64,000 nucleotides of DNA from contig NZ_JAGDYM010000014.1 of the NCBI RefSeq assembly GCF_017565745.1, forward strand, positions 1-64,000. The letters run 5' to 3'. This stretch comes from Leucobacter weissii (GTDB lineage: Bacteria > Actinomycetota > Actinomycetes > Actinomycetales > Microbacteriaceae). The notes under the pieces are model-generated. The model was given only the letters and a program-made list of their open reading frames with translations, ran no database searches and was not told where the DNA came from. Below, in pieces: positions 19,249-54,279 of this stretch (position 1 is its first letter; each line of letters starts with the position of its first letter). The translations under genes were made by a program, and so were the position numbers.

Positions 19249-19263
19249 CGATACCAGCCATCT
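19249..19263. promoter_or_regulatory. Shared catabolic operator, copy 1
   Basis: CGATACCAGCCATCT, whose reverse complement matches the island consensus CGATRRCTGGYATCG at 14 of 15 positions. It lies 65 bp before the SDR start at 19328, outside any gene. Confidence 0.6.
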
Positions 19264-19327
19264 CCGGGCACGGGGCGGGCGGGGGTCGCTAGGGGCGAGG
19301 ATGGAAGCACTCGAGGAGGAGGAGACG

Positions 19328-20092
19328 ATGGGTCGTTTGCAGGGCAAGGTCGCGCTGATCACCGGGATCGGTGCCGGGATGGGCCGTGAGGCGGCGCGCC
19401 GTTTCGCGGCGGAGGGCGCGACGGTGGTCGGTTGCGACCTGAACGTCGAGGGGCTCGAGGAGACGCTGCGGCTCGTGCGCGAGGCCGGGGGCGAGATCTC
19501 GGGCAGCGCGCCGGTCGATGTCGGCGACGCCCGGGCCGTGGAGGCGTGGATCGACGCCGCCGGGGCGGAGCACGACGGTATCGACGTGCTCTACAACAAC
19601 GCGTCGATCCAGCGGTTCGGCGCGATCGACGAGATCGGCGTGGAGGATTGGGAGTTCGCGATCGACATGGAGCTCAACCTCGTGTTCTACGCGGTGCGCG
19701 CCGCGTGGAAGCACCTGAAGCGGCGCGGGGGCGTGATCGTGAACATCGGTTCGATCGCGGGGACGCGCGGGGTCGAGTTCATGCCGCAGAACGCGCACGG
19801 AGCGGCGAAGGCGGGGGTGATCAACCTGACGCAGCAGTTGGCGGTCGAGGGCGGCCCGCACGGGATTCGCGCGGTGTGCGTCTCGCCGGGGTTCATCGAG
19901 ACGCCCGCGACGCGCTTCCTGGTGGAGGATCCGCCCGCGCCGCTCAAGGCGACGTGGGATCGGATCCCGCTGCGCCGGGTCGGTCGCCCGGATGACGTGG
20001 TGAGTGCGGCCGTGTTCCTGGCGTCGGACGAGGCGTCGTGGATCACGGGCGTGAACCTCGTGGTCGACGGCGGCGGCTCGGTACTCGGCTGA
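19328..20092 (+). CDS. SDR-family protein with His replacing the catalytic Tyr
   Basis: A 254-residue short-chain dehydrogenase. The TGIGAGMG cofactor loop, YNNAS and NIGSIAG serine motif are present. The active-site YxxxK reads HGAAK (in FMPQNAHGAAKAGV), so the catalytic tyrosine is replaced by histidine while the lysine stays. The C-terminus (GVNLVVDGGGS) is typical. Such a change should alter or abolish ordinary alcohol dehydrogenation. GAGGAGGAGGAG before the ATG at 19328 is a very strong ribosome site; an upstream ATG at 19301 is less likely. It carries an island operator 65 bp upstream and ends 4 bp from the convergent RidA gene. Confidence 0.85.
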   Translation: MGRLQGKVALITGIGAGMGREAARRFAAEGATVVGCDLNVEGLEETLRLVREAGGEISGSAPVDVGDARAVEAWIDAAGAEHDGIDVLYNNASIQRFGAIDEIGVEDWEFAIDMELNLVFYAVRAAWKHLKRRGGVIVNIGSIAGTRGVEFMPQNAHGAAKAGVINLTQQLAVEGGPHGIRAVCVSPGFIETPATRFLVEDPPAPLKATWDRIPLRRVGRPDDVVSAAVFLASDEASWITGVNLVVDGGGSVLG

Positions 20093-20096
20093 GCCC

Positions 20097-20492
20097 TCAG
20101 GCGTGCGCGACCGCCTCGATCTCGATCCGCAGCCCGGGGTCGATCAGTCGACGGACGAGCACGAGCGAGTTGGCCGGGAGGCCTCCGGGGAACGCGAGTG
20201 GGAAGGCCCGGTCCATGTAGGGCACCAGCTCGTCCAGGTCCTTCTCGTCGACGACGAAGATCGTGAGCTTCACGACGTGCTCGAGTCCGAGCCCGACGGC
20301 ATCGAGCGCGGCACCGATGTTCGCCACGGCCTGCCGGGTCTGCGCGACGATTCCCGGTCCGACCGACTCGCCGTCGGGCCCTCCTCCCACCTGCCCGGAG
20401 ACGAAGGCCAGCGGCCCCACCGCGACGACCTGGGAGTACGGTCCGGGCGGATCCAGCAGCGCGCCCGGGTTGACGAAGCTCCTCGGCTCCAC
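20097..20492 (-). CDS. RidA/YjgF family enamine/imine deaminase-like protein
   Basis: A 131-residue RidA-family protein. GPYSQVVAVGPLAFVSGQVG and the arginine-bearing segment LVLVRRLIDPGLRIEIEAVA fit the trimeric fold whose Arg-Glu pair activates water. The family includes 2-iminobutanoate deaminase and 2-aminomuconate deaminase, so its place in a catabolic operon suggests removal of nitrogen from a ring-cleavage product. The start is GTG at 20492, 7 bp after the hydrolase. It is the last gene of the seven-gene minus-strand operon. Confidence 0.85.
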   Translation of the reverse strand: MEPRSFVNPGALLDPPGPYSQVVAVGPLAFVSGQVGGGPDGESVGPGIVAQTRQAVANIGAALDAVGLGLEHVVKLTIFVVDEKDLDELVPYMDRAFPLAFPGGLPANSLVLVRRLIDPGLRIEIEAVAHA

Positions 20493-20499
20493 GGCCGCC

Positions 20500-21660
20500 T
20501 CAGACGAGCTCGCCGAAGGTCTCGGCCACCCAGTCGGCGATGATGCCGGCGACGTAGGGCATGTTGTCGATCGAGATGTGCTCGGTGCCGCCCTCCGGGT
20601 CGTCGAAGAGCCGCAGTTCCCGTTTGGGGCTGTTCACCGCCTGCTCGTAGGTCTGATGGGCGTACTTGACGTTGATCTGGCGGTCCCCGACGCCGTGCGT
20701 GATGAGGATCGGCGAGGTGATCCGCTCGGCCACGCCGTTCAGGTGCATGCCTCGGGTCCGTTCCACGAAGTCGTCCATGTCGGCGGCGCCCCACACCCAG
20801 AACACGTGGTCCCAGTAGTGCGGCACCGGGTTCTCGCCCTCGCGCTGACGCCGGCCCTCCTGCACCTCGAACCAGTTGTGGTTGGCGCCCCACGCGACGC
20901 CCAGCTTCAGCCGCTTCTCGAACGCGAGCGCGCGCGGCGCGTAGTATCCGCCGAGCGACCAGCCCACGACCCCGATCCTCTCGGCGTCGACGCCGAGGGC
21001 ATCGGCCTCGGACTCGAGCCAGTCGACGATCGCGGCCGCCCACGCCTCGGTGTCGTGGCGCGCCGTCAGCCCGCGCAGCCGCAGCGCCTCCCCGGATCCG
21101 GGGGTGTCGATCATCAGGGTCGAGACGCCGCGCTGGGCGAGCATCTGGGGGAACCCCGAGTAGTACATCATCTCCTTGGTGGAGTCGAGGCCGTTCCACT
21201 GGATGATCACGGGGTGCGGCCCGTCCCCGGGCGCGCGGTGGAAGTAGCCGGGCAGCGAGGAGCCCTCGTAGGGGATCTCGACACGGGTGAGCGGCACCCG
21301 CAGCAGCTCCACGTGCTTGAGCAGCAGATCGATCGACTTCTGGTAGGCGGCGTTCCGGCCGCTCCAGCCGGGCGATTGCAGACGCTCCGCCTGCGAGGTG
21401 TAGAGCGAGGCCCGGTAGTAGGTCTCACCCGCGCCGATGGTGCGGCCGCGGGCCTCGTCGTCCTGCGCCTTCGCGATCAGGCGGTCGGCGACGGCCGACC
21501 ACGACGCGTACAGCTCCTCGGTGCCCGCGTCGTCGCCGTGCAGCGCCGCCTCGAGCACCGGCCGGCAGGCGCGGTCGACCTCGTCGATGTAGCCGCCGTT
21601 GTTGAGCGTCGCGACGACCGACATGCTCCACACGTAGTTGGTGGGGAAGTACATGAACAT
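20500..21660 (-). CDS. Alpha/beta hydrolase of the C-C-cleaving DHPON-hydrolase/Ayg1-like type
   Basis: A 386-residue hydrolase with a helical N-terminal domain of about 125 residues before the catalytic core. The triad reads Ser235 (GWSLGGYY), Asp326 (THGVGDRQIN) and His361 (GGTEHISID), with HPVIIQWNGLDSTKE forming the oxyanion side. This layout matches 2,6-dihydroxypseudooxynicotine hydrolase and fungal Ayg1, which cut C-C bonds of 1,3-diketone-like substrates. It may therefore hydrolyse a ring-derived ketone in this operon. AGGAGA precedes the ATG at 21660. The substrate is inferred only by family. Confidence 0.8.
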   Translation of the reverse strand: MFMYFPTNYVWSMSVVATLNNGGYIDEVDRACRPVLEAALHGDDAGTEELYASWSAVADRLIAKAQDDEARGRTIGAGETYYRASLYTSQAERLQSPGWSGRNAAYQKSIDLLLKHVELLRVPLTRVEIPYEGSSLPGYFHRAPGDGPHPVIIQWNGLDSTKEMMYYSGFPQMLAQRGVSTLMIDTPGSGEALRLRGLTARHDTEAWAAAIVDWLESEADALGVDAERIGVVGWSLGGYYAPRALAFEKRLKLGVAWGANHNWFEVQEGRRQREGENPVPHYWDHVFWVWGAADMDDFVERTRGMHLNGVAERITSPILITHGVGDRQINVKYAHQTYEQAVNSPKRELRLFDDPEGGTEHISIDNMPYVAGIIADWVAETFGELV

Positions 21661-23388: not shown

Positions 23389-23931
23389 CTAGTCGCGCGG
23401 CCCGTGGCGCATCAGGCGCTCGCGCACATCGGACGGGAGCGCGTCGAGCAGATCGGCCTGGAACTCGCCGTCCACGAGCACGAAGGCGACGCGCGCGATG
23501 CTGTCGCCGCGGTTCGCCCACGCATGATCGGTGCCGCGCTGCACGACGATGTCGCCCGCCTCGGCGGTGACCTCGCTGTCGTCGAGGATCAGGGTGATCC
23601 GGCCCTCGAGCACGATCCCGTAGTCGATGGACTCCGTGCGGTGCACCGGCGACTGCAGGCCCCGCTCGTCGAGGTGACCGGGCAGGAACTCGTTGATCCG
23701 GATCCGCGTGCCCCGCGGCGGCGGCGGCACGGTGACGTCGCCGATCGTCGGATCCTCCGGTCCCGCGTGGATCTGCGCGGGGGAGGGCTCCGTGCGCCAC
23801 ACCTCGTGGAACGCGACGCCGTCCTCCGGGAGCTCCTTCGTCACGGGCACCGGACCGTCGCTCACGACGATCGAGGCTCCGTCGGCATCGTGTCCCGTCA
23901 CGATCCGCCGCGGCGCGCGGAAGCCGCTCAC
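23389..23931 (-). CDS. Cupin-domain protein
   Basis: A 180-residue protein with one cupin module in its second half: SPVHRTESIDYGIVLEGR is cupin motif 1 (His and acidic ligands) and GTDHAWANRG is motif 2 (His). The first 90 residues start FRAPRRIVTGHDADGAS and hold an extra beta segment, as in a group of bacterial and fungal cupins of unknown reaction found beside monooxygenases. It could be a dioxygenase or isomerase. I chose the GTG at 23931 because it overlaps the monooxygenase stop by GTGA, which is translational coupling. Confidence 0.8.
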   Translation of the reverse strand: MSGFRAPRRIVTGHDADGASIVVSDGPVPVTKELPEDGVAFHEVWRTEPSPAQIHAGPEDPTIGDVTVPPPPRGTRIRINEFLPGHLDERGLQSPVHRTESIDYGIVLEGRITLILDDSEVTAEAGDIVVQRGTDHAWANRGDSIARVAFVLVDGEFQADLLDALPSDVRERLMRHGPRD

Positions 23932-25064
23932 GGCTCCGGCACCAGTGCGACGAGGGCCTCGGCCATGACCCTTCCCGGGTCGGCATCGGGGCTGCCGGGG
24001 TGCTGCTCCCAGTGCGCCAACTGGAGCGACGCGTCGACGACGCCCTTGACCCTGGGCACCCGGCGCGCGTGGAAGGCGGTGAGCTGCTCCTCGAGCTCGC
24101 CCTCGGCGGTGAGGTACTCGGCGAGGAGCAGGGAGTCCTCCACGCACTGCGCGGCTCCCTGCGCGATCAGCGGCGGCACCGCGTGCACGGCCTCGCCGAG
24201 GGCGAGCACCCGGCCCGTGTGCCAGGGGCCCTCGACGAAGATCCACTCGATCTCCTGGAAGTTGAGGAACGTCGATTCGTCGATCGTCTCGCGCAGGAAG
24301 TCGAACTCGCCGTGGAAGTCCGCCATGAGGCGCCGCACTTCCTGCCAGTCGCTCAGACCGTTGGCGGGCCGAACCGGGTCGCAGAGCACGAACACGTAGC
24401 ACTGCGTGTCGCTGACGGGGGTGTAGCCGACCTTGAACGCGCCGCCCGGCCCGCCCGTGCCATCGGGGAAGGCGATGGCGCCGAGCATGTCGGGCCGCCG
24501 CTCGGTGACGGCTCGCCAGATGCCGAGACCGCTGGGCGCGCGATCCTCGGTGATCCCGAGCTTCGGCCGGGTCTGCGACTTGATGCCCTCGGCGACGATG
24601 ATCAGGTCCCACGACTCGGTCGTGCCGTCCGAGAGCGTCGCCGTCGCGAAGCCGTCGTGGTTCTCGAAGGAGTCGAGCTGCGTGCCCAGCCGGATCTCGA
24701 CCCCCAGCGATTCCGCGCGCCGCAGCAGGATCTCGTGGATGTCGGGCCGGAGGGCGCCGATCGTCGGTGGGAGGTCCGGCCCGCCCGTGCGGGGGGTGTC
24801 GAGATGGGTCATCACCCGGCCGTCGGCGAAGACCAGCGTGACGCCCCGCTCCTCGGGGAACCCCTTCGCGAGCACCTCGTCCACCACGCCGAGCTCCCGG
24901 AACACCCGGAGCGCATTGCCCTGGATCGTCAGGCCGTGACCGACCCGTGCCCAGGCGGGAGCGCGCTCGATGAGCGTCGAGACGATCCCCTTCTTCGCGA
25001 GCGCTATCGCCGCGGTCAGGCCGGTGAATCCCCCACCGACGATCAGCACCTTGCCGACTGACAT
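23928..25064 (-). CDS. FAD-dependent aromatic-type monooxygenase
   Basis: A 378-residue class A flavoprotein hydroxylase. GGGFTGLTAAIALAKKG at residues ~9-25 binds ADP. Residues ~290-300 (VLALGEAVHAVPPLIAQGA) are the second FAD motif, with GE in place of the common GD. Arg39-Val-type residues after RAPAWARVGHG contact FAD. Relatives hydroxylate phenols, salicylate or hydroxypyridines using NAD(P)H and oxygen. As first gene of the seven-gene operon it probably carries out an early hydroxylation. GAGGAG stands 9 nt before the ATG at 25064, and an island operator lies 113 bp upstream. Confidence 0.88.
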   Translation of the reverse strand: MSVGKVLIVGGGFTGLTAAIALAKKGIVSTLIERAPAWARVGHGLTIQGNALRVFRELGVVDEVLAKGFPEERGVTLVFADGRVMTHLDTPRTGGPDLPPTIGALRPDIHEILLRRAESLGVEIRLGTQLDSFENHDGFATATLSDGTTESWDLIIVAEGIKSQTRPKLGITEDRAPSGLGIWRAVTERRPDMLGAIAFPDGTGGPGGAFKVGYTPVSDTQCYVFVLCDPVRPANGLSDWQEVRRLMADFHGEFDFLRETIDESTFLNFQEIEWIFVEGPWHTGRVLALGEAVHAVPPLIAQGAAQCVEDSLLLAEYLTAEGELEEQLTAFHARRVPRVKGVVDASLQLAHWEQHPGSPDADPGRVMAEALVALVPEP

Positions 25065-25176
25065 CTTCGTCACTCTCCTCACGGACGCGCCGTCACATCC
25101 TCGGGGCGATGCCTTCGCCCTCACATCCTGTGTCGACGTTAGGGGTGACCGGGCGGTGACCGCCACCCGCGGGCGC

Positions 25177-25191
25177 CGATGCCAGCTATCG
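25177..25191. promoter_or_regulatory. Shared catabolic operator, copy 2
   Basis: CGATGCCAGCTATCG; its reverse complement CGATAGCTGGCATCG matches the island consensus at every position. It lies 113 bp before the FAD monooxygenase start at 25064 and just beyond the 3' end of the LysR gene. Confidence 0.7.
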
Positions 25192-25233: not shown

Positions 25234-26148
25234 CTACGGTGCGGTCCCCAGCGCGCCGGAGCCGACCACCGCCGCGATCGTGTCGCGGAACCAGGCGTGC
25301 GCGGGATCGTGTCCGTGCGCCGGGTGCCACCACAGGCGCTCCACGAGCTCGACGGTCGGGAAGGGCGTCGGCACCGCGACGGTCGTCGTGCCGCTGCGCT
25401 CGACGAGTCGGCGCGGCACGACCCCGATGAGGTCGGTGCCGATGACGATGGGCGGGATCGAGAGCAGCGTCGACGTCGCGACCCGTACCTCGGGCCGCAG
25501 ATCCAGCTCGCGCATCCGGCGCTCGGCGGGAGTCAGATGCGCGCGACCGAAATCGCAGCGGATGTGCGGGCTGGCGAGGAAGTCCTCGAGGGTGATGCTC
25601 CCGTCCGCGACGAGCGGATTGTCCCGGTCGGCGACCACCACGTACTCGTCCCGGAAGAGTTCGAAGCTCGGCGCCTCGATGCCGATGCCCGGCACCGTGA
25701 CGATGAAGTCGTTCGAGAGCAGATCCCTTCCGGCCGCCGTGGGCTCGGTGGGGAGGCGCCGCAGGTCGAAGGCCAGTCCGTCGCCCGCGGCGACCACGAT
25801 GCCGAAGACCGGTCGCAGCTCGATCGCGGCGTAGTCGGTGAGCTGGATCCCGAATCGGCGCTGGGTCAGCTCCGGCTGGAACGGCTCCTTCTGCCCGAGG
25901 GCCTGGGCCACGAGCGGAAGCGTGAGCTGGACCTGCGGCAGGAGCTGATGCGCGAGCGGCGTCAGCTCGTAGTCCCGCCCGATGCGCACGAGCAGCTCGT
26001 CCTGGAACACCGTCCGCAGCCGCGCGAGGGCCGACGACATGGTGGACTGGCCCATGCCGATGCGCTCTCCGGCGCGCGTGACGTTCGCCTCTTCGAGCAG
26101 GGCGCGCAGCGCGACGAGGAGGTTCAGATCCGGGTCACCGATAGCCAT
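25234..26148 (-). CDS. LysR-family regulator (NodD/NahR-like)
   Basis: A 304-residue LysR protein. The N-terminal winged helix (DLNLLVALRALLEEANVTRA, GERIGMGQSTMSSALARLR, DELLVRIGRDYELTP) is of the NodD/LinR/NahR type, followed by a periplasmic-binding-like effector domain. It belongs to the same subfamily as the LysR at 52122. It is divergent from the extradiol dioxygenase gene and upstream of the monooxygenase operon, so it may activate either. Its message looks leaderless (TACCAT 7 nt from the ATG). Aromatic compounds are common effectors for this subfamily. Confidence 0.88.
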   Translation of the reverse strand: MAIGDPDLNLLVALRALLEEANVTRAGERIGMGQSTMSSALARLRTVFQDELLVRIGRDYELTPLAHQLLPQVQLTLPLVAQALGQKEPFQPELTQRRFGIQLTDYAAIELRPVFGIVVAAGDGLAFDLRRLPTEPTAAGRDLLSNDFIVTVPGIGIEAPSFELFRDEYVVVADRDNPLVADGSITLEDFLASPHIRCDFGRAHLTPAERRMRELDLRPEVRVATSTLLSIPPIVIGTDLIGVVPRRLVERSGTTTVAVPTPFPTVELVERLWWHPAHGHDPAHAWFRDTIAAVVGSGALGTAP

Positions 26149-26149
26149 G

Positions 26150-26164
26150 CGATGTATGGTATTC
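26150..26164. promoter_or_regulatory. Divergent promoter region with a degenerate operator
   Basis: On the minus strand TACCAT (26156-26161) lies 7 nt before the LysR start, a leaderless -10 box. The overlapping plus-strand sequence CGATGTATGGTATTC shares about 11 of 15 positions with the island operator. I treat it as a possible weak copy only. Confidence 0.35.
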
Positions 26165-26253
26165 GCTTCACCCGATGGTCACCCGCCCGAGCCCGACGTA
26201 CGCTCGGAGTGTCGCGCCCGCTGCGCGTCCGTTTTCACTTCGAGGAAGGGTCG

Positions 26254-27192
26254 ATGATGACTGACAGGCTGGTCTCCCACCTGCGCTACGCCGCGCTCGC
26301 CGTACCGAATTTCGAGGAGGAGCGCGATTTCTTCGTCACGCACTGGGGGCTCTCGGAGGCGCACGGCGAGGAGGGGCTGTCGTATCTCGCGGCGGAGGGG
26401 TCGCCCGAGCCCTACATCCTGCGGCTGCGCCGGGACGAGAAGCGGGTCGACCTGGTGGGCTTCGGGGTGCGGAGCCGCGAGGATGTGGCGCGGCTCGCCG
26501 AGAAGCTCCGGGCGGAGGACGTGCGGTTCGTCCACGAGCCGCGGGAGCTGACGCAGTACGGCGGCGGCTACGGCTTCCGCGTGTTCGACGGCGACGGTCG
26601 CACCCTCGAGTTCTCCACCGGATACGAACTGCGTCAGTCGCGCAAGATCCGGGAGCGCGAGCCGATCCCGGTGAAGCTGTCGCACTTCGTCTACAACTCG
26701 GCCAACCTCAACGAGACCGTGCAGTGGTACATCGACCACCTCGACTTCGCGATCTCCGATTCGCTGGTGCGGCCCGACGGCACCGACATGATGCACTTCC
26801 TCCGCTGCAACGAGAACCATCACTCGATCGCGGTGGCCCAGGGACCGCACCACTCGATGCACCACATGTCGTTCGAGATGCGCAGCATCGAGGAGTGGAT
26901 GCGCGGCGCGGGCAAGATCCTGCGCGCCGGCGCGCGCATGGTCTGGGGCCCGGGGCGGCACAACGCCGGCGACAACACCTTCGCCTACTTCCTCGACCCG
27001 GCGGGGAACACGATCGAGTACACGACGGAGCTCGCGGTGCTCGACGAGGACACCTGGCACCCGTCCCGGCACGACATCAGCGAGCTGTCGACGCAGGATC
27101 AGTGGGGCACCGCCGCGGAGATGAGCGAACTGGTCGCCCGGGAGTCGTTCAACGACATCGACACGGGGCTGTTCGTCGCGCCGCCGGTCTGA
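26254..27192 (+). CDS. Type I extradiol ring-cleavage dioxygenase
   Basis: A 312-residue two-module VOC dioxygenase like catechol 2,3-dioxygenase and BphC. The second module carries the full active site: Fe ligands His144 (KLSHF), His204 (MHHMSF) and Glu255 (NTIEYT), plus second-shell His190 (NENHHSIAV), His236 (PGRHNAG) and Tyr245 (FAYF). The spacing between His236, Tyr245 and Glu255 equals that of BphC. It would open a catechol or hydroxylated heteroaromatic ring next to, not between, the hydroxyls. GAGGAAGG precedes ATGs at 26254 and 26257. No meta-cleavage partners of standard type lie beside it; the C-C hydrolase and FAH-like enzymes are candidates. Confidence 0.9.
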   Translation: MMTDRLVSHLRYAALAVPNFEEERDFFVTHWGLSEAHGEEGLSYLAAEGSPEPYILRLRRDEKRVDLVGFGVRSREDVARLAEKLRAEDVRFVHEPRELTQYGGGYGFRVFDGDGRTLEFSTGYELRQSRKIREREPIPVKLSHFVYNSANLNETVQWYIDHLDFAISDSLVRPDGTDMMHFLRCNENHHSIAVAQGPHHSMHHMSFEMRSIEEWMRGAGKILRAGARMVWGPGRHNAGDNTFAYFLDPAGNTIEYTTELAVLDEDTWHPSRHDISELSTQDQWGTAAEMSELVARESFNDIDTGLFVAPPV

Positions 27193-27238
27193 CGGGCGTC
27201 CGGGCGCGGGTCCGCAGCGAGGCGGGCGCTCACCCGCC
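27193..27238. terminator. Short hairpin between convergent genes
   Basis: GGCGGG (27221-27226) pairs with CCCGCC (27233-27238) around CGCTCA, overlapping the stop codon of the minus-strand dehydrogenase. No T-run is present. It is a weak candidate for a two-way terminator in a 37-bp convergent gap. Confidence 0.35.
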
Positions 27239-28225
27239 CGGGCGGTTCACCGGCGAATCGGGGAGGCCCGTCTCGTGCAGCGCGACGGCGTTCTGCGCCT
27301 GGATCCGCACGTATTCGATCTCGGTGCGCGCCGAGAAATAGGCGATGTGCGGGGTGAGCACCACGTCGTCGCGGTCGAGGAGCGGATGGCCGGGCGCCGG
27401 AGGCTCCTGGGAGAGCACGTCGAGCGCCGCGCCGGAGAGCCGTCCCGCGTCGAGCGCTGCGGCGAGGGCGGCTTCGTCGACGAGGCCGCCGCGCGACACG
27501 TTCACGAGGACCGCGCCTCGCGGCATCTCCGAGAGGAAGTCGCCGTCGATCATCCCGGTGGTCTCCGGGGTGAGCGGCAGGTGCAGGGAGAGCGCGTTCG
27601 CGGTGCGGCGCACCTCCTCCAGGCTCGTGCGGGAGATCCCGAGCGACGCGAGGTCGGCGCGGACCTCGGGGGTGTCCGGCAGCAGCGGGTCGTAGCCCAC
27701 GATCGAGCCGAAGAGGGGGCCCGCGAGCCGGGCCAGCTCGCGCCCGATCCTGCCGAGGCCGACGATGCCGAGCGTCGTCTCGCTCAGGCGCGGCGGCGGC
27801 GAGGGCGCGCGGTCGTTCCACTCCTCGGGATTGGCCGACGCCGTGTAGAAGGGCAGCTGGCGCGCGCTGCTGAGCAGGAGCGCGAGCGCGTGCGTGGCGA
27901 CCTCCTCGGTGGCGGCGCCGGGGACGTTGGTCACCCAGACCCCGTGCTCGGTCGCGGCCGCGACGTCGACGTAGTCGAATCCCATCGACATGAGCGACAC
28001 GATGCGAAGCCGCGGCAGCGCCTCGATGATCTCCCGGGTGACCGGCGAATAGCCGGGCAGCAGCGCGACGGCGTCGCGGGCGCCGGCGATGATCTCGCCG
28101 GCGTCGCGGCTGCCGAGCACGCGCACCTCGAAGCCGTGCTCCTCGAGCAGGCGGATCCCGATCGCCGGATCGGTGTCGTCGACGTCGGTGTAGACCGCGA
28201 TCGGTCGCGTGGTGTCGGCGGTCAT
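27230..28225 (-). CDS. D-2-hydroxyacid dehydrogenase, coupled to a ThDP enzyme
   Basis: A 331-residue D-isomer 2-hydroxyacid dehydrogenase. The glycine motif is VGLGRIGRELA, Arg is in NVSRGGLVD, Glu in DVLSQEPPAPG and His in LTPHIAYFSA, so the triad is complete. It starts at 28225, overlapping the stop of the thiamine-diphosphate enzyme by 4 bp. The pair would interconvert 2-oxoacids: one by reduction, the other by decarboxylation or condensation. It differs strongly from the dehydrogenase at 15127. The substrate is unknown. Confidence 0.88.
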   Translation of the reverse strand: MTADTTRPIAVYTDVDDTDPAIGIRLLEEHGFEVRVLGSRDAGEIIAGARDAVALLPGYSPVTREIIEALPRLRIVSLMSMGFDYVDVAAATEHGVWVTNVPGAATEEVATHALALLLSSARQLPFYTASANPEEWNDRAPSPPPRLSETTLGIVGLGRIGRELARLAGPLFGSIVGYDPLLPDTPEVRADLASLGISRTSLEEVRRTANALSLHLPLTPETTGMIDGDFLSEMPRGAVLVNVSRGGLVDEAALAAALDAGRLSGAALDVLSQEPPAPGHPLLDRDDVVLTPHIAYFSARTEIEYVRIQAQNAVALHETGLPDSPVNRPGG

Positions 28226-29862
28226 GCGGTCGCGCCTCCTTCCGGCAGCTCGAATCCCGCCTGGTCGATGTGGATCAGCTGCAGTCCGCCCTCGCGGAGG
28301 GCGGCGTCGACGGCGGCGGCCAGCTCGCCGGGGGCGCCGGCCCGGCGGCCGGTACCGCCGAACGCCGTGGCGACGGCCGGCCAGTCCGGCTGCACGAGGT
28401 CGACGCCGATCGGCGCGATGCCCGCGTCGGCCTCGTTCTGCTTGATCTCGGCGTATCCGCCGTTGTCGACCACGATGACGGTGACGTCCTCGCGCTGCTC
28501 CACCACCGTGATGAACTCGTTCATCGAGAACATGAGCGCGCCGTCGCCGATCACCACGAACGACGGGCGGTCCGGGCGCGCGATCCGCGAGCCGAGCGCG
28601 GCCGGCAGGCCGTAGCCGAGCGTCGCGTAGGTGGTCATGTACGGGGTGGAGTTGGGCTCGGACACGCGCAGCACGTTGAGCAGGCCCCAGTAGGCGATCT
28701 GCGAGGAGTCCGTCGACACGATCGCGCGCTCGGGCAGCGCCGCCGCGATGACCTCCGCGAGCGCGGTGTTCTCGGGTGACAGCTCGGCGCACTCGGCGCG
28801 CGCGGCGGCGCGCGTCCGCGCCGCCCCGGGCGCCCCGTCGCGCGGGGATGCGCTGCCGAGCGCAGCGAGCTCGTCGAGGATCGCCGCCAGCGCGACCCTC
28901 GCGTCGCCCACGAGCCCGATCCGCGCCGGCTGGTTCTTGTCGATCTGGGAGGCCAGCAGGTCGATGCGGATCACCGAGCCCCGCGCCTCCAGGCGCTCCA
29001 CCCAGAGCTCGGCCTCGCCGAGCTTCGAGCCGACGACGAGCAGCACGTCGGCGTCGCGGGCCCGGTTCCGGGCGGCCGGCAGGCGCAGGTTCGCGCCGAG
29101 GGCGAGCGGGTGGTGCTCGTCGAGCACGCCCTTCGCGTTGCCGGTGGTGACGACCGGCGCGCCGAGCCGTTCGGCGAGCGCGCGCAGCTCCGCGGCGGCG
29201 GCGCGGGATCCGCCGCCCGCGAGGACGACCGGATCCTGCGCGGAGGCGAGCAGCGCGGCCGCCTCGGCGACGGCGGCGGGATCGGGGCGCGCGGCGGGGG
29301 CGAATGCGCGAGCCCGGAGGGCCCCGTCAGCGACCTCGGCGGTCTCCTCGAGCAGGTCGAGGGGCACCTCGATGTAGACCGGTCGCGGCCGCGTCGTCGC
29401 GAAGAGCTCGAACGCGTCGTGCACCGCCTCGACGGCCTCCTCGGCGGTCCGCACGCGGCGCCCCCACTCCACGATGGCGGAGGCGGCGCCCAGCTGATCC
29501 TTCGTCTCGTGCAGCGTGCCGACGTCGGCGAACTCCGCGCCCCTCGCCGGTCCGGGGGAGAGGAGGATCATCGGGCGGGACTCGCAGTAGGCGGTTCCGG
29601 CCGCCGAGAGCGCGTTCAGCAGACCGGGGCCGCTCGTCGTGATGACCACGCCGGGTTTCCCCGTCTGCAGCGACCAGCCGTCGGCCGCGTACCCGGCCCC
29701 CTGCTCGTGGCGCGAGGTGACCGCGCGGATGCCCAGTGCGTCCAGCGGTCGGTAGAACTCGAGGTTGTGGGTGCCCGGGATCCCGAACACGGTGTCGATG
29801 CCGTAGTGGTGCAGGGTCTCGATGATCACCCAGCCGGTGGTGCGCTGGCGTACGGTTTCCAT
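28222..29862 (-). CDS. Thiamine-diphosphate-dependent enzyme (acetolactate-synthase-like; AruI-like decarboxylase?)
   Basis: A 546-residue enzyme with the three ThDP-family domains. The catalytic Glu is in SRHEQGAGYAADG near residue 53. The central domain spans residues ~190-330. The Mg-ThDP motif is GDGALMFSMNEF followed by VIVVDNGGYAE. The N-terminal sequence TVFGIPGTHNLEFYR is close to what I recall for 5-guanidino-2-oxopentanoate decarboxylase (AruI), but benzoylformate decarboxylase-type and acetolactate-synthase-type reactions remain possible. It is first in a two-gene operon with a hydroxyacid dehydrogenase and is separated from the upstream transporter by a strong hairpin. Confidence 0.85.
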   Translation of the reverse strand: METVRQRTTGWVIIETLHHYGIDTVFGIPGTHNLEFYRPLDALGIRAVTSRHEQGAGYAADGWSLQTGKPGVVITTSGPGLLNALSAAGTAYCESRPMILLSPGPARGAEFADVGTLHETKDQLGAASAIVEWGRRVRTAEEAVEAVHDAFELFATTRPRPVYIEVPLDLLEETAEVADGALRARAFAPAARPDPAAVAEAAALLASAQDPVVLAGGGSRAAAAELRALAERLGAPVVTTGNAKGVLDEHHPLALGANLRLPAARNRARDADVLLVVGSKLGEAELWVERLEARGSVIRIDLLASQIDKNQPARIGLVGDARVALAAILDELAALGSASPRDGAPGAARTRAAARAECAELSPENTALAEVIAAALPERAIVSTDSSQIAYWGLLNVLRVSEPNSTPYMTTYATLGYGLPAALGSRIARPDRPSFVVIGDGALMFSMNEFITVVEQREDVTVIVVDNGGYAEIKQNEADAGIAPIGVDLVQPDWPAVATAFGGTGRRAGAPGELAAAVDAALREGGLQLIHIDQAGFELPEGGATA

Positions 29863-29908
29863 GGTTCCTCACGTCTTGGTTCTGCGGTGCCGCACCGCGT
29901 GGTCGGTT

Positions 29909-29946
29909 CCGGTGCTCCGCGGGCGTCGACGCCCGCGGAGCACCGG
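29909..29946. terminator. 38-bp perfect palindrome after the MHS transporter
   Basis: A 19-bp inverted repeat with no forced spacer: the left arm begins CCGGTGCTCCGCGGG at 29909 and its complement ends at 29946. It begins five bases after the minus-strand transporter stop and before the ThDP gene. This is the place of a terminator, although only a GC stem and no U tract is present. Confidence 0.7.
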
Positions 29947-29950
29947 GGTG

Positions 29951-31306: not shown

Positions 31307-31343
31307 GTGAGCTCCTTTGCTGGGTTCCGGATGGGTGGTCGGG

Positions 31344-33014: not shown

Positions 33015-33212
33015 GGGGAACTCCTTCGTCTCGAATCGATACGAGGGTACGCTCACCTGCTCCCAGAAGAAAAGCAGAAAAAGCGCTGAATCGGATACTT
33101 CCGCTGGAACGTTAGCTTATGGTCGCATTTCGCCGCCCATATGCGTCGATAAGCGTCCTATCTGTGATCTTTTGTCATGCGCGGGCACGGGCATTCTGGC
33201 ATGATGCTGGGC
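33015..33212. other. Relatively AT-rich divergent promoter region
   Basis: This 198-bp gap separates the amidohydrolase and Lrp genes. It is noticeably richer in A and T than its surroundings (for example the run AGAAGAAAAGCAGAAAAAG at 33066-33084). It contains CGATA-N7-TATCT at 33147, which has island-operator-like arms but a longer spacer. It probably holds both promoters and Lrp sites. I see no gene in it. Confidence 0.5.
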
Positions 33213-37451: not shown

Positions 37452-37471
37452 AACAGAATATTGATTCTGTT
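37452..37471. promoter_or_regulatory. AT-rich palindromic operator ahead of the P450 operon
   Basis: AACAGAAT (37452-37459) and ATTCTGTT (37464-37471) form a perfect palindrome with a 4-bp spacer. Outer bases ACATAA (37441-37446) and TTATGT (37470-37475) extend the symmetry loosely. It stands out against GC-rich surroundings and is 68 bp before the P450 start. It is the likely site for the TetR encoded at the end of the operon. Confidence 0.7.
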
Positions 37472-37487: not shown

Positions 37488-37502
37488 CGATACCAGCTAT
37501 CG
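37488..37502. promoter_or_regulatory. Shared catabolic operator, copy 3
   Basis: CGATACCAGCTATCG, the best symmetrical copy; its complement is CGATAGCTGGTATCG with 5-bp perfect arms CGATA/TATCG. It lies 57 bp before the MFS gene and 104 bp before the divergent P450 gene. Confidence 0.75.
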
Positions 37503-38830: not shown

Positions 38831-38839
38831 CTGGTATCC
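38825..38839. promoter_or_regulatory. Shared catabolic operator, copy 4
   Basis: CGATGACTGGTATCC matches the consensus at 14 of 15 positions. It overlaps the stop codon of the MFS gene and is 59 bp before the flavin oxidase gene at 38898. A possible -10 box, TAGGCT, follows at 38874-38879. Confidence 0.7.
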
Positions 38840-38897
38840 CGGTTCACGCGTGGCCCGCGCTGCGCCGGATGCGTAGGCTCGCAGCGGAGGTTCAACG

Positions 38898-43297: not shown

Positions 43298-43394
43298 GTG
43301 TGCGCTCCTTCTTCGGATACTCCGCGGTCTCTCCAGGGTACGCCGCGTCCCCGCGAGCGTATGACGAAGCGCGGGAGCCGTCCATAGCCGCGGG

Positions 43395-43409
43395 CGATGA
43401 CTGGCATGG
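43395..43409. promoter_or_regulatory. Shared catabolic operator, copy 5
   Basis: CGATGACTGGCATGG matches the consensus at 13 of 15 positions; the two last bases differ. It lies between the divergent aldehyde dehydrogenase (98 bp) and GntR (47 bp) genes. Confidence 0.6.
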
Positions 43410-43423: not shown

Positions 43424-43446
43424 TTCGATATTCGATATTCGATAAT
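43424..43446 (+). promoter_or_regulatory. Triple TTCGATA direct repeat ahead of the GntR gene
   Basis: Three tandem copies of TTCGATA (43424, 43431 and 43438) end in AATC. The repeats overlap a possible -10 box GATAAT (43441-43446), ten bases before the ATG. They fit an autoregulatory site for the GntR protein or a phased binding array. Confidence 0.6.
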
Positions 43447-43455: not shown

Positions 43456-44172
43456 ATGACCGCGCTCCAGCCCCGCCGTATGACCGATCAGGTCGTCCGC
43501 GTGCTCCGCGAGCGCATCGTCGCCGGCGCGCTCGCCGCGGGCCGCCGGATCGACATCAACGAGATCGCCGCCGAGCTCGGCGTGAGCCAGACCCCGGTGC
43601 GCGAAGCGATCCTCCAGCTCGAGGCGCTGGGGCTCGTGACGCGCCAGCCGTACCGGGGCAGCGTGGTCGCCGGCATCGATCCGAACCGCCTCGAGGAGGT
43701 GACGGCGCTGCGCATCGATCTCGAGGGACGCGCCACCCTGCTCGGCGTGCCGCGGCTCTCCGAGGCCGACGTCGACCGCATGCGCGAGCTGCACGCCGCG
43801 CTCGCCGCATACGATCGCGCCCACCGCGACGAGGCGGCCCGGCGCTCCGACGGCTTCAACCGGCTCAATCGCGAGTTCCACGGCGTCGTCTACGCCGCGG
43901 CCGATTCGCCGACGCTGCTGCGGATCATCGGCGTCCTCCAGGACGAGGCGGATCGCATGCGGCTGCGCGTCGACATGCGTCGACCCACCGCGGAGGCCTT
44001 TCACGCGCAGATCCTGGACGCCTGCGAACGCCGGGATCCGCAGGCCGCCTGCGAGGCGACGAGGCGGCACCTGCTCGAATCGTACCTCGCGATCCGAGGG
44101 GCGTCGCAGCCGCCCGAGACGGGCATGCTCGCGGACGTGATCCGCGACTCGAGAATGGAGACCAAGCGATGA
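43456..44172 (+). CDS. GntR-family (FadR/FCD-type) regulator
   Basis: A 238-residue GntR protein with an FCD effector domain. The winged helix is DQVVRVLRERIVAGALAAGR, then INEIAAELGVSQTPVREAIL (residues ~10-60). The all-helical FCD part follows and holds metal-type histidines in REFHGVVY and EAFHAQIL. Proteins of this class sense organic acids. It starts an operon with an ornithine-cyclodeaminase-like enzyme (ATGA overlap), a DapA-like lyase, a VAO-type oxidase and an SDR. No ribosome site precedes the ATG, so the message may be nearly leaderless. Confidence 0.88.
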   Translation: MTALQPRRMTDQVVRVLRERIVAGALAAGRRIDINEIAAELGVSQTPVREAILQLEALGLVTRQPYRGSVVAGIDPNRLEEVTALRIDLEGRATLLGVPRLSEADVDRMRELHAALAAYDRAHRDEAARRSDGFNRLNREFHGVVYAAADSPTLLRIIGVLQDEADRMRLRVDMRRPTAEAFHAQILDACERRDPQAACEATRRHLLESYLAIRGASQPPETGMLADVIRDSRMETKR

Positions 44173-48683: not shown

Positions 48684-48698
48684 CGATGGCAAGCATCC
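48684..48698. promoter_or_regulatory. Shared catabolic operator, copy 6 (variant centre)
   Basis: CGATGGCAAGCATCC keeps both arms of the island motif but has AA in place of TG in the centre. It lies 65 bp before the cyclase gene, the same distance as copy 1 from its gene. Confidence 0.5.
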
Positions 48699-50550: not shown

Positions 50551-50552
50551 GA

Positions 50553-50681: not shown

Positions 50682-50696
50682 CGATAGGAGGCATTG
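50682..50696. promoter_or_regulatory. Shared catabolic operator, weak copy
   Basis: CGATAGGAGGCATTG agrees with the island consensus at 12 of 15 positions. It lies 90 bp before the small monooxygenase-type gene and upstream of a possible -10 box TAAGGT at 50731. Confidence 0.4.
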
Positions 50697-50785
50697 CGCC
50701 CGGCCGGTAGCCGGCGCGTGCCGAGATCCGTAAGGTGAGATCCGCGGGGGACACCCGACGAAGAAGTTGAGAGAGGAAACCCGAA

Positions 50786-51079
50786 ATGGCCTTTGTCTGT
50801 TCTGCAACCTGGACCGCCAAGCCCGGTGAGGAGGAGACGGTGCGCCAGGCGCTGGAGCGCCTCTCGCCCGCCTCGCGCGAGGAGCCCGGCAACGTCTACT
50901 ACCAGGCCTACCGGAGCCCGGAGGAGCCGAACGTCTTCCGCATCTTCGAGGTCTACACCGACGAGGCCGCGTTCAAGGCGCACGGCACCTACCCGCACTT
51001 CGAGCAGTGGGCGCTCGGTCAGGCGATCCCCGCCCTCGAGACGCGGCAGCGGGATTTCTACGAGACCCTGGACTTCTGA
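50786..51079 (+). CDS. Antibiotic-biosynthesis-monooxygenase (ABM)-fold small protein
   Basis: A 97-residue ferredoxin-like alpha/beta barrel protein. FVCSATWTAKPGEEETVRQA and NVFRIFEVYTDEAAFKAHG are typical of the ABM family, whose members oxygenate quinol-type substrates without cofactor or act as heme or ligand binders. It overlaps the downstream FAH gene by one base (TGATG). It could oxidise a hydroquinone intermediate. AGAGAGGAAA precedes the ATG. Confidence 0.83.
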   Translation: MAFVCSATWTAKPGEEETVRQALERLSPASREEPGNVYYQAYRSPEEPNVFRIFEVYTDEAAFKAHGTYPHFEQWALGQAIPALETRQRDFYETLDF

Positions 51080-52041
51080 TGCCGCGCTACGTGCGCTACC
51101 GCGAGCACGGGATCGTGCACACGGGCGTCGTCCGCCACGATCGCGTGCAGGATCTGCCGGGGGATCCCGACATCCTGACGCTGCTCCAGGCGCCGGAGGC
51201 CGAGCGCGCGGATGTGCTGCTGCGCTCGGGCAGGCAGCAGCGCAAGCCGGTCGAGCAGACCCAGCTGCTGACGCCGGTGGAGCCGCGCGCGATGCGCGAC
51301 TTCGTGGCCTTCGAGGCGCACATCGCGGGGATGAAGAAGAGCGAGCCGGGCGATGGGAGCGTGCCCGAACCGTGGTACGAGGCCCCCGCCTTCCTCTTCA
51401 TGAACCCCTGGTCCGTCGTCGGCACCGGCGCCGAGATCCCCATGCCCCCGTTCACCGAACGGCTCGACTTCGAGCTCGAGGTCGCCGCGATCGTCAAGAA
51501 CACGGTCCGCGACGTGCCGATCGAGGAGGCCGCCGGGCACATCGCCGGCTACTGCATCCTGAACGACTGGAGCGCGCGCGACATCCAGGGCCGCGAGATG
51601 CGGATCGGGCTCGGCCCCTCCAAGGGCAAGGACTTCGCCAACACCCTCGGCCCGTGGATCACCACGCCGGACGAACTCGAGCCGTATCGCGACGGCGACC
51701 GCTTCGACCTCGAGATGACCGTCGAGGTCAACGGCGAGGTGATCGGCGGCGACAACCTGCGGAACATGTCGTGGTCGTTCGAGGAGATGCTCGTGCACGC
51801 GTCCCGCGATGCCTGGGTCGGCGCGGGCGATGCGCTCGCCTCGGGCACCGCCTCGACCGGCGCCCTCTCCGAGCGCTGGAGCCGGAGCGGTGCGCTCACG
51901 CCCCCGCCGCTGCGGGTCGGCGACGTGGTGCGGATGACGGTGGCGGGGCTCGGATCGATCGAGAACCGCGTCGTGGAGCAGACGAGCCCCGGGCACACGG
52001 TGCCGCGGGCGCGGCGGACCTACGGCCCCGATCGGCTGTAG
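51079..52041 (+). CDS. Fumarylacetoacetate hydrolase-family protein, copy B
   Basis: A 320-residue FAH-fold protein closely related in motifs to the product of 49573. The metal site reads Glu-Glu in LDFELEVAAIV and Asp in LNDWSARDIQ, followed by GPSKGKDFANTLGPW. MRDFVAFEAHIAG and WSRSGALTPPPLRVGD are shared with copy A (DFVAFEEHVEG, GRNGARTPPPLVAGD). The ABM-type gene just before it is translationally linked. Two such enzymes suggest successive or parallel C-C cleavage steps. Confidence 0.88.
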   Translation: MPRYVRYREHGIVHTGVVRHDRVQDLPGDPDILTLLQAPEAERADVLLRSGRQQRKPVEQTQLLTPVEPRAMRDFVAFEAHIAGMKKSEPGDGSVPEPWYEAPAFLFMNPWSVVGTGAEIPMPPFTERLDFELEVAAIVKNTVRDVPIEEAAGHIAGYCILNDWSARDIQGREMRIGLGPSKGKDFANTLGPWITTPDELEPYRDGDRFDLEMTVEVNGEVIGGDNLRNMSWSFEEMLVHASRDAWVGAGDALASGTASTGALSERWSRSGALTPPPLRVGDVVRMTVAGLGSIENRVVEQTSPGHTVPRARRTYGPDRL

Positions 52042-52121
52042 GGAGGGCCCCGGTGCCCCGCGGGCATCGGGGCGGGATCGGCTATGCTGTGACGAACGCA
52101 CAATGGAGTGAAAGTCGGGTC

Positions 52122-53054
52122 ATGGAAGATCTGCGAGGCATCGACATCAACCTGCTCATGGTGCTCGACGCCGTGCTCGCGGAGCGCAACCTGACGAAGG
52201 CGGGCGAGTCCATCGGCCTCACGCAGCCGGCCGTCAGCGGGGCCGTGGCGAAGCTGCGCAAGGTGACCGGCGACCCGCTGCTCGTGCGCTCCGGCCGCAC
52301 CTTCGAGCTCACCGACCACGCGAGGGAGCTGCAGCCGATCGTGAGCGAGGCGCTCACGGAGGTCGCCCGCACCTTCAACCTCCGCCCGATGTTCGACCCG
52401 CGCACGAGCGACCGGCAGTTCCGCATCTCGGCCTCCGACTACGCGCTCTCCGTCATGACCGCGCCGCTGCTGGCGGTGCTGGAGCAGGAGGCGCCGGAGA
52501 TCTCGGTCGAGTTCGATGCGCTCAACAGCATCGACCCCGTCGACCTGCTCCGCAAGGACGTCGTCGTCACGGCGGCGAACCGCGCCGTGCCCGGCAAGCA
52601 CCAGGCGCTGTTCTCGGACACGTTCGTCTGCCTCGTGCGGGCGGGACACCCGCGCCTGCGGGACGGCGCGCTCACGCTCGAGGATCTCGGGGAGATGCCC
52701 TACATCGACGTGGCGTTCGCCGAGGACGTCGTGGCCGTGGCGAACGACGCGCTCCACGACGCCGGGGTGGCGCCCCGCGTGACCATGAGCGTGACCGGCT
52801 TCCTCCCGATCCCGTTCCTGCTCGAGGGGACCGACATGTACGGCTTCGTCCCGGCGCGGGTCGCCGAGCAGTACGCCGGCCCGCTGGACCTCGTGATCGC
52901 CAGGACCCCGCTCTCGCATCGCACCCTCGTGGAGGTCGTGTACTGGCATCCCTCGAAGACGGACGACCCCGCGCTGCGCTGGCTCATCGGCATTCTGCGC
53001 CAGACCGCCGAACGGATCGAGTTCTCGTCCGAGGCGGAGCCGGCGGGCGTGTGA
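52122..53054 (+). CDS. LysR-family regulator (NodD/NahR-like)
   Basis: A 310-residue LysR protein. The winged helix is DINLLMVLDAVLAERNLTKA, then IGLTQPAVSGAVAKLRK and DPLLVRSGRTFELT. The effector domain follows to the C-terminus. It is of the same NodD/NahR-like subfamily as the regulator at 25234. It sits at the end of the FAH cluster and is the best positioned candidate to bind the repeated 15-bp operator. A -10-like TATGCT is present at 52083. The ATG at 52122 lacks a clear ribosome site. Confidence 0.88.
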   Translation: MEDLRGIDINLLMVLDAVLAERNLTKAGESIGLTQPAVSGAVAKLRKVTGDPLLVRSGRTFELTDHARELQPIVSEALTEVARTFNLRPMFDPRTSDRQFRISASDYALSVMTAPLLAVLEQEAPEISVEFDALNSIDPVDLLRKDVVVTAANRAVPGKHQALFSDTFVCLVRAGHPRLRDGALTLEDLGEMPYIDVAFAEDVVAVANDALHDAGVAPRVTMSVTGFLPIPFLLEGTDMYGFVPARVAEQYAGPLDLVIARTPLSHRTLVEVVYWHPSKTDDPALRWLIGILRQTAERIEFSSEAEPAGV

Positions 53055-53076
53055 GCGTTCGGAGCGCCCGAGGGGT

Positions 53077-53379
53077 TCAGCGGAGCCGTTCCGGGAAGCC
53101 GACGGCGGCGCTGCGCAGCGGCGGTGCGAGCGCGATCGCGGCGGCGCGATCCGGGTCCGCCTCGTAGGCGCGCTCGGCGCGCAGGAACGCCTCCCGGTCC
53201 CCCGGGTGCGAGATCGCCCAGGTGAAGGCCTCGTGCTCGGCGTCCAGATAGGCCCACTCGATCGCGAACCCGGCGCGCTCCCGCAGTGCGGGGATGTGCG
53301 CCGACCACCAGCTCCCGAACTCCTCGGCGGTGCCGGGGGCGAGCTCGTAGCGCCGGAGCATGAGGGTGCGGTCGCTCAT
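53077..53379 (-). CDS. Small NIPSNAP/EthD-like protein
   Basis: A 100-residue protein whose pattern (TLMLRRYELAPGTAEEFGSWWSA, then FAIEWAYLDAEHEAFTWAIS) fits a dimeric alpha/beta-barrel fold of the NIPSNAP or EthD type. Such proteins are often found beside catabolic dehydrogenases and may bind or isomerise intermediates. Its ATG overlaps the SDR stop by one base (TGATG at 53379-53381), so they form an operon. It ends convergently with the LysR gene. Confidence 0.7.
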   Translation of the reverse strand: MSDRTLMLRRYELAPGTAEEFGSWWSAHIPALRERAGFAIEWAYLDAEHEAFTWAISHPGDREAFLRAERAYEADPDRAAAIALAPPLRSAAVGFPERLR

Positions 53380-54182
53380 CAGTCGCTCACCAGGGTGCCG
53401 CCGTCGACGACGAGGTTCTGCCCGGTGGTGAACCCGCCCGCCTGCGACGCCAGGTAGAGCACCGTGCCCGCCACGTGCGCGGCCTCGCCGAACCGTCGCA
53501 GCGGGGTCTTCCGAAGCCGTTCGTCCCTGCCCGGGCCCTCCGTGATGGGTCGCGCGAACCCGGTCTCGATCACGCCGGGCGAGATCGCGTTCACCCGCAC
53601 CCCGGAGGCTCCCCACTGCACGGCGAGGTTGCGGGCGAGTTGGGCGTTCGCGGCCTTGGTGAGGCCGTAGAGGCCGATCTGCGAGTTGCCGCGGAGTCCC
53701 GACAGGCTCGACATGACGATGAAGGCGCCGCCGCCGCGCTCGGCCATGTGCGGGATCGTGAGGTTGGCGAGCCGCAGCACGCTGCGGACGTGCACGTCGA
53801 ACATGCGATCGAGCTGCTCGTCGGTGCTCGTGAGGTGCGGCCCGGTGTCGAGTGCCAGGCCGGCGTTGCAGAACACCGTGTCGATGCGCCCGTGCGCGTC
53901 GAGCGCGGTGCCGACGAGCGCGGTCAGCTCCTCCTCCGAGGTCACGTCGCAGGCCCGCCCCTCGACGGGCAGCCCCTCGGCGCGCAGCCCCGCCGCGGCG
54001 CCGGCCGGGTCCTCGTCTCCGAGTCCGCTCAGCACGGTTCGCGCGCCGGCGGAGGCGAGCAGCCTCGCCGTGGCGAGCCCGATCCCCGAGGTCGCTCCGG
54101 TGACCAGAGCCACCGTGCCTTGGAGGGAGAAGAGTTCGGCCGCCGATGGTGCGGCTCCGGTCGGCGGCGTCGATGCGGTCAT
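53379..54182 (-). CDS. SDR-family oxidoreductase
   Basis: A 267-residue classical SDR. The cofactor loop is VTGATSGIGLATA, the serine is in MSSLSGL, the catalytic YxxxK is YGLTK, and the ending NLVVDGGTLVSD is typical. The first 20 residues are a Pro/Ala/Thr-rich extension. It heads a two-gene operon and is divergent from the ABC importer. A full island operator lies 48 bp before its ATG. Confidence 0.88.
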   Translation of the reverse strand: MTASTPPTGAAPSAAELFSLQGTVALVTGATSGIGLATARLLASAGARTVLSGLGDEDPAGAAAGLRAEGLPVEGRACDVTSEEELTALVGTALDAHGRIDTVFCNAGLALDTGPHLTSTDEQLDRMFDVHVRSVLRLANLTIPHMAERGGGAFIVMSSLSGLRGNSQIGLYGLTKAANAQLARNLAVQWGASGVRVNAISPGVIETGFARPITEGPGRDERLRKTPLRRFGEAAHVAGTVLYLASQAGGFTTGQNLVVDGGTLVSD

Positions 54183-54229
54183 GGCGCCAACGGTAGCCCG
54201 CGAGGGGTCGCCCGCGACAGCGCTCTCGG

Positions 54230-54244
54230 CGATGACTGGCATCG
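54230..54244. promoter_or_regulatory. Shared catabolic operator, copy 7
   Basis: CGATGACTGGCATCG matches the consensus at every position. It lies 48 bp before the minus-strand SDR gene and 159 bp before the divergent ABC importer gene. Confidence 0.75.
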
Positions 54245-54264
54245 GCCCCACCCATCCGCACGAT

Positions 54265-54279
54265 CGATAGCTGTTATTG
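54265..54279. promoter_or_regulatory. Shared catabolic operator, weak tandem copy
   Basis: CGATAGCTGTTATTG agrees with the consensus at 13 of 15 positions. It lies 35 bp from copy 7 and toward the ABC importer. A third partial half (CGATACCAGG, 54384-54393) overlaps the ribosome site of the importer gene. Confidence 0.5.

Follow-up and report, generated by a model that had tools for sequence, protein, structure and literature searches.

A 15-bp repeat scattered over a catabolic gene cluster of Leucobacter weissii is a real, conserved control site, and we predict that it is probably recognised by the cluster's own LysR-type activators (LysR1, LysR2 or both). The stretch under study, hereafter the window, spans the first 64 kb of contig NZ_JAGDYM010000014.1, out of a genome of 3.37 Mb. 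A preliminary description had reported seven main and two weak copies of the repeat, all of which were recovered at the same positions and strands, and a tenth was added beside the LysR1 start codon (Table 1).

We infer from sequence how the system would work, with respect to binding, activation, start sites, inducer, substrate and the acting LysR protein. A LysR dimer would bind the dyad GATRNCWGNYATC, with the end of the box ~10 bp ahead of a TTS-type −35 and 33-35 bp ahead of a TANNNT −10, and the inducer-bound regulator would activate about ten promoters of one catabolic programme. The predicted targets are the FAD monooxygenase operon, the VOC dioxygenase, transporters, the FAD oxidase operon, the aldehyde dehydrogenase, cyclase-FAH1 and ABM-FAH2-LysR2. 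The box beside the LysR1 start codon would let the regulator repress LysR1, and that before ABM-FAH2-LysR2 would give positive feedback via LysR2.

Placement of the box in the genome and in promoters

A genome scan of motif density had been proposed with the preliminary description, and a whole-genome pattern search placed in the window all three exact matches to the 15-bp sequence and, when one mismatch was allowed, six of nine. The relaxed 12-mer GATRNNWRBYAT occurs at 38 genome places by hand count, ten of them within 19-54 kb of the window (~1% of the genome). Loose matching by itself is weak evidence (26 strand-matches with up to three mismatches in the window versus a shuffled mean of 14.5, with 2 of 100 shuffles reaching 26), and strict matching combined with independent data is strong. 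Because the relaxed 12-mer came from the same window sites, an independent matrix was built solely from 11 sites that belong to two other Leucobacter genomes. Its top nine hits in the window are the nine reported copies (13.5-23.7 bits; the next place scores 12.9). Among pattern candidates outside the window, a few reach 17-18 bits (best C25:173978, 18.1 bits), and sequence alone is therefore no clean marker; TANNNT at 33-35 bp accompanies 2 of 25 relaxed matches there (25 of the 28 outside places). An apparently non-coding site at G000:C14:277025-277039 (L024), CGATAACAGTCATTG, scores 20.3 bits by the full matrix; it lacks TANNNT at 33-35 and is a possible further regulon member.

The constant feature of the sites is their distance to a promoter. 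An oriented profile of 69 site reads evidenced the dyad followed by TTS at 11-13 bp and a −10 at 34 bp, the −35-like TTS and the −10 being separated by a 17-bp spacer. Spacing was scored at 86 sites of at least 16 bits, after three of 89 were dropped as near-identical. On the best-scoring strand, TANNNT occurs 45 times at 33-35 bp (30 times at exactly 34), versus 8 for the remaining offsets up to 63 taken together; across 1000 base shuffles, no 5-bp window contained more than 9. On the opposite side of the same sites the counts are 13 at 33-35 and 10 elsewhere, because the dyad can face either way. With the threshold lowered to 14 bits, 68 of 114 sites carry TANNNT at 33-35 on at least one side. 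This is the case for six of the ten window copies (25177, 26150, 38825, 43395, 50682 and 54230), and weaker look-alikes accompany 48684, 54265 and 19249. The fixed distance suggests an activator box, a reading that we prefer to the earlier term "operator" because of the fixed place upstream of a −35/−10 pair. Likewise, the earlier "CTGG core" turned out to be an off-centre reading of the dyad, the actual core.

Other details of the preliminary description were amended. It had placed all copies in intergenic DNA, which nearly holds, the 38825 copy overlapping the last 6 bases of the MFS transporter open reading frame 37559-38830 (+). By the start choices made in our analysis, its range of 47-65 bp before a start codon covers four of nine copies only; the spread of 46-123 bp rules out start-codon distance as a placement rule, the constant being the distance to the −10. 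By this −10 rule, the 54230 copy was assigned to the minus-strand SDR gene and the 43395 copy to the minus-strand aldehyde dehydrogenase gene (SSADH). The TACCGT element of the former lies 7 bp ahead of the SDR start codon (54182-54195), which suggests a leaderless transcript.

Table 1. Box copies and associated genes in the window. A dot marks copies of undecided strand; offsets and distances are in bp.
Feature	Position	Strand	Context	Distance to start codon	−10-like element
Box	19249-19263	.	Between rhodanese-like gene (−) and SDR gene (+, ATG 19330)	66	Weak look-alike GAGGAT at 33, toward SDR
Box	25177-25191	−	Precedes FAD monooxygenase operon; exact match; promoter alignment supports copy	112	TAACGT, 25136-25141
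Box	26150-26164	+	Between LysR1 (start 26148, −) and divergent VOC dioxygenase gene; CGATGTATGGTATTC; weak by matrix, 11.2 bits		TACGCT, 26199-26204, offset 34
Box	37488-37502	.	Between P450 (−) and MFS transporter (+); exact match	56 or 103	
Box	38825-38839	+	Precedes FAD-oxidase (PF01565)/RpiB-like/ADH operon	58	TAGGCT, 38874-38879
Box	43395-43409	.	Between SSADH (−) and GntR (+)	46 or 97	TACGCT, 43356-43361, facing SSADH
Box	48684-48698	+	Precedes cyclase-FAH1	64	Look-alike CAGGAT at 34; no TANNNT at 33-35
Box	50682-50696	+	Precedes ABM-FAH2-LysR2	89	TAAGGT, 50731-50736
Box	54230-54244	−	Exact match	47	TACCGT, 54190-54195, facing SDR gene 53379-54182 (−)
Box	54265-54279	+	Precedes ABC-transporter binding-protein gene (GTG 54403)	123	Look-alike TTGACT at 34; no TANNNT at 33-35
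LysR1	25234-26148	−	HTH_1 and LysR_substrate; orthologs in LysR1-search loci		
LysR2	52122-53054	+	LysR-type; third gene after ABM and FAH2		
GntR/FCD regulator	43456-44172	+	Probable target or neighbour, not box regulator		
FAD monooxygenase	23928-25064	−	FAD_binding_3		
Cupin protein	23389-23928	−	83-85% conserved in G071/G073		
Alpha/beta hydrolase	20500-21450	−	Best solved relative 2,6-dihydroxypseudooxynicotine hydrolase		
VOC-family protein	26257-27192	+	Two glyoxalase stretches, dioxygenase-type; divergent from LysR1		
ABM-domain protein and FAH2 hydrolase	50786-52041	+	First genes of LysR2 operon		

Conservation in Leucobacter and other actinobacteria

LysR2 matches at E ≤ 1e-30 were found in 8 of 54 genomes of the genus, its own included. 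Orthologs at 75-76% occur only in G071 (an uncultured Leucobacter metagenome-assembled genome) and G073 (Candidatus Leucobacter sulfamidivorax), both of which carry the cluster. Conservation at orthologous promoters, the check that the preliminary description had asked for, was evident in these two clusters: in both, a box still precedes the FAD monooxygenase, cyclase-FAH1 and ABM and lies in the SSADH-GntR intergenic region; G073 additionally has one in the P450-MFS intergenic region and others upstream of the FAD oxidase and the ABC binding protein. Counterparts of the 25177 copy score 22.2 (G071) and 24.8 bits (G073), with TANNNT at 34 in both; those of 43395 have TANNNT at 33 facing SSADH, and those of 48684 score 17.0 and 21.7 bits, respectively. 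In G073, the counterpart of 38825 (at 23978) has TANNNT at 34, that of 54265 (at 55141) scores 22.7 bits, and that of 37488 (22.4 bits) likewise lacks a −10. Counterparts of 19249 (10.1 bits in G071, 8.7 in G073) and of 26150 are weak and conserved in position, together spanning 8.7-10.5 bits. The module at 27230-33056 (2-hydroxyacid dehydrogenase, TPP enzyme, MFS and amidohydrolase) has no match in the searched G071/G073 stretches, and no site in the 27.2-33.1 kb segment exceeds 7.5 bits; this boxless module looks like an insertion into the cluster.

Beyond these genomes, a LysR1 alignment search yielded 44 loci from named genomes. Two of them (L120 and L121), belonging to the Leucobacter genomes that had trained the matrix, were left out of the promoter counts and of the shuffled-matrix test, which cover 42 loci; a wider scan of 74 loci (L120-L193) includes both and the window locus, L164. 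Locus counts are not fully independent, since some entries overlap on one contig (L124 with L133, L131 with L139) and others stand for a single place entered twice (L117 and L132, L118 and L151). At 15 bits the matrix found 87 matches in the 74 loci versus 3 in the same sequences read backwards, and 79 in the 42 non-Leucobacter loci, where 200 column-shuffled matrices averaged 4.7 and reached 28 at most. A chance repeat is thus ruled out by genome clustering, the independent matrix, promoter spacing and the shuffled-matrix control.

The boxes stand before specific genes (Table 2), and operon-internal genes lack them, as expected. VOC genes of the relatives have a site of at least 10 bits upstream in 16 of 25 cases, with the −10 facing VOC in all 16; in 12 of those, from 12 loci, the site lies directly between LysR1 and the divergent VOC gene. 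The catabolic programme is seen in loci of Microbacteriaceae, Micrococcaceae, Demequinaceae, Nocardioidaceae, Micromonosporaceae, Intrasporangiaceae and Streptomycetaceae.

Table 2. Boxes upstream of gene matches in the 42 loci (box of at least 12 bits within 250 bp).
Gene	Matches	Boxed	Box with −10 facing gene
ABM	21	16	16
FAD monooxygenase	31	13	11
SSADH	23	10	7
FAD oxidase	24	5	5
MFS	19	7	1
PBP	8	5	0
GntR	6	6	0
LysR1	39	12	0
LysR2	32	0	0
FAH2	22	0	0

Raw pattern counts were rejected as a regulon marker, as 60 relatives hold 0-15 matches at one mismatch or fewer. Out of 78 matched places examined, 36 were classed as coding by a rough codon-position test, and TANNNT at 33-35 was seen in five: four lie in the clusters of G071 and G073, the fifth (L087) on a different contig of G071. 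Around distant LysR homologs (L165-L193, 1.5-kb flanks) the matrix gave one match at 15 bits, and dyads there lack a −10. A candidate paralogous regulon in G004 was set aside, and no claim is made for it: of eight dyad-like places around the distant LysR genes of that genome, one has TANNNT at 33.

The LysR pair

Both HTH and substrate-binding domains are present in the cluster-encoded regulators, and the best solved relatives of LysR2 are the LysR-type regulators 2uyf/1utb, presumably DntR. The dyad lies upstream of the −35 in fixed helical register, and in 12 loci the regulator gene diverges from a target with the site in between, the usual LysR layout according to the available account (PMC4834489). 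Regulator genes were searched in 24 genomes carrying the cluster, hand-picked from the 44 loci. LysR relatives occur in all 24, as expected from the use of LysR1 to select the loci; in Actinacidiphila, boxes persist alongside just one relative at E ≤ 1e-30. We assign the box to the LysR proteins on account of the company that LysR genes and box keep, the dispensability of GntR (see below) and the Actinacidiphila boxes with a single LysR. Also in favour, six of seven plasmid clusters with related enzymes and a distant or absent LysR show no site facing a −10.

In a LysR tree of 84 rows, the LysR1 and LysR2 groups separate, each holding Microbacteriaceae, Nocardioidaceae, Micromonosporaceae and a Streptomyces row, with support of 88/91 and 86/69 at the two basal forks. 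LysR1 and LysR2 are thus likely an old pair, and the "one regulator" earlier proposed for both strands over 35 kb may therefore be two paralogs sharing one box: one regulatory system is well supported, acting through either a single protein or both. The two LysR candidates put forward at the outset fit as predicted binders, perhaps jointly. As a more tentative extension, possible though rather doubtful, the pair might follow a LysR code without T-N11-A and jointly read a rigid 13-bp dyad near −54, perhaps as mixed oligomers integrating two inducers; the two proteins would thereby control about ten dispersed promoters of a flavonoid-type catabolic regulon and would have been paired since before several actinobacterial families split.

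Several observations weigh against the LysR assignment. LysR sites typically carry T-N11-A and lie near −65 in the available accounts (PMC8407307, PMC4834489). Here, 59 of 69 oriented sites have G at position 2 (two have T) and 61 have C at position 14 (one has A), the matching frame of the box reading G-N11-C. The site centre would lie near −54 and not −65 if transcription starts 7 bp past the −10; this estimate is one helical turn closer, so that the same helix face would be kept. No TANNNT at 33-35 stands on either side of 46 of the 114 sites of at least 14 bits, among them the exact 37488 copy of the window, which also lacks a look-alike. The co-occurrence of LysR and box is partly built in, as the loci were found through LysR1. 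Within 250 bp upstream of LysR2 no box was found in any of 32 matches, and in the 39 LysR1 matches of the 42 loci no upstream site faces LysR1, although repression would not need facing. Sequence-only matches also occur in relatives without LysR2, and the highest count (15 at one mismatch or fewer) belongs to G027, a Leucobacter genome with no LysR2 match at E ≤ 1e-30. Finally, the one remaining plasmid cluster of the seven, from Corynebacterium occultum, does have a site facing a −10 (L236:23451-23465, CGATAGCTGCCATTG, 20.8 bits, TANNNT at 34), and this site lies outside the enzyme cluster in a stretch with no close LysR relative. Separately, the exact G027 matches examined (L086 and L091) both lack a −10, one being coding and the other giving no clear coding call.

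Gene content, competing explanations and significance

The best solved relatives of the FAD monooxygenase are salicylate-monooxygenase-type and methylhydroxypyridine-carboxylate oxygenases. The cluster also encodes a cyclase, two FAH proteins and a SnoaL-like protein, together with RpiB-like, DHDPS-family, OCD-family, SSADH and ABC-transporter genes. The available account of the Variovorax ifc genes for isoflavone catabolism names an FAD monooxygenase, a glyoxalase-type dioxygenase, cupins and a hydrolase, the latter weakly similar to 2,6-dihydroxypseudooxynicotine hydrolase and dispensable for daidzein degradation upon disruption (PMC11069340). FAD monooxygenase, VOC dioxygenase, cupin and hydrolase occur together in our cluster as well, a likeness to fde/ifc by protein class that extends to the 2,6-dihydroxypseudooxynicotine-hydrolase relative; that account names no LysR protein, whereas a pair is found here. 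This gene set resembles flavonoid (fde/ifc) catabolism, and our best guess is an (iso)flavonoid-type substrate, the boxed genes probably breaking down flavonoid-like plant compounds in soil bacteria. That the same box and regulators serve another phenolic or alicyclic compound is a serious possibility, if somewhat short of probable. The RpiB-like, DHDPS-family, OCD-family, SSADH and ABC-transporter genes go unmentioned in the available fde/ifc accounts, and the likeness is one of protein class. On the flavonoid side, four classes named for ifc are shared, and a Diaphorobacter plasmid (Comamonadaceae) carries LysR, hydrolase, VOC, FAD enzyme, MFS, cyclase, cupin, FAH and SDR genes together. Annotated plasmid clusters gave generic names or no annotation as pathway guides.

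Binding of the box by a regulator encoded elsewhere, with the LysR proteins acting via other sites, we consider unlikely. The departure from T-N11-A would suit it, and locus selection by LysR1 could overlook another shared regulator. However, the other regulators of the window have few matches in the 44 loci at E ≤ 1e-20 (TetR 3, GntR 7, AsnC 0), 12 loci have the box in the gap that separates LysR1 from the divergent gene beside it, and distant LysR homologs without the cluster show no such box with a −10. Beside the 37488 box, the P450 promoter holds an inverted repeat at 37452-37471, AACAGAAT-N4-ATTCTGTT, a candidate operator of another regulator such as the TetR protein at 34187.

A core-promoter element, read for example by a special sigma factor, would account for the rigid spacing to the −10; it is highly improbable given the separate −35/−10 with a normal 17-bp spacer downstream and the dyad, as expected of a dimeric protein. 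Least likely of all is the GntR/FCD protein, which the preliminary description had listed as a candidate: a box precedes GntR in all six matches, but none of these has TANNNT at 33-35 facing GntR, whose promoter holds a separate direct repeat, and at E ≤ 1e-20 there is no GntR match in 17 of the 24 genomes (a 37% match in one, at least 51% in six), 16 of those 17 loci still holding a box of at least 15 bits (the exception, Rhodoluna L137, reaches 13.2). The direct repeat, TTCGATATTCGATATTCGATA at 43424-43446, also occurs in G071 and L123 and is perhaps GntR's own operator; a −10-like GATAAT adjoins the ATG, possibly giving a leaderless transcript.

Several LysR proteins of the NodD family of paralogs read a common nod box before many operons. 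The present system would be alike in paralogs sharing one box, and differs in box sequence and function. In the naringenin pathway of Herbaspirillum seropedicae, FdeR is a LysR activator of the fde operon for flavonoid degradation and, in the available account, acts from clustered T-N11-A boxes at one fdeR-fdeA region (PMC10799723); unlike this, the present system has a single dyad without T-N11-A, about ten promoters and two LysR proteins, and belongs to Actinomycetota. ThnR of tetralin degradation, as described in the available account, likewise is one LysR activator serving several promoters, two of them close and divergent (compare 54230/54265), with one site at an unusual distance, −75; its box and pathway are other, and it acts as a single regulator with the co-activator ThnY (PMC4834489). 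An abstract-level literature search recognised neither this motif nor an actinobacterial flavonoid LysR regulon.

Collectively, these data provide, for a catabolic programme seen in loci of seven families, a predicted box and regulator pair together with a rule of promoter layout (box + 34 bp + −10), from which the genes served by each box, divergent ones included, can be told. How LysR-type regulators recognise DNA that lacks T-N11-A is a question for which this box is well suited. As the available ifc account reports IfcA homologs from Proteobacteria only (PMC11069340), a comparable actinobacterial system would widen the picture of plant-phenolic use by soil bacteria.

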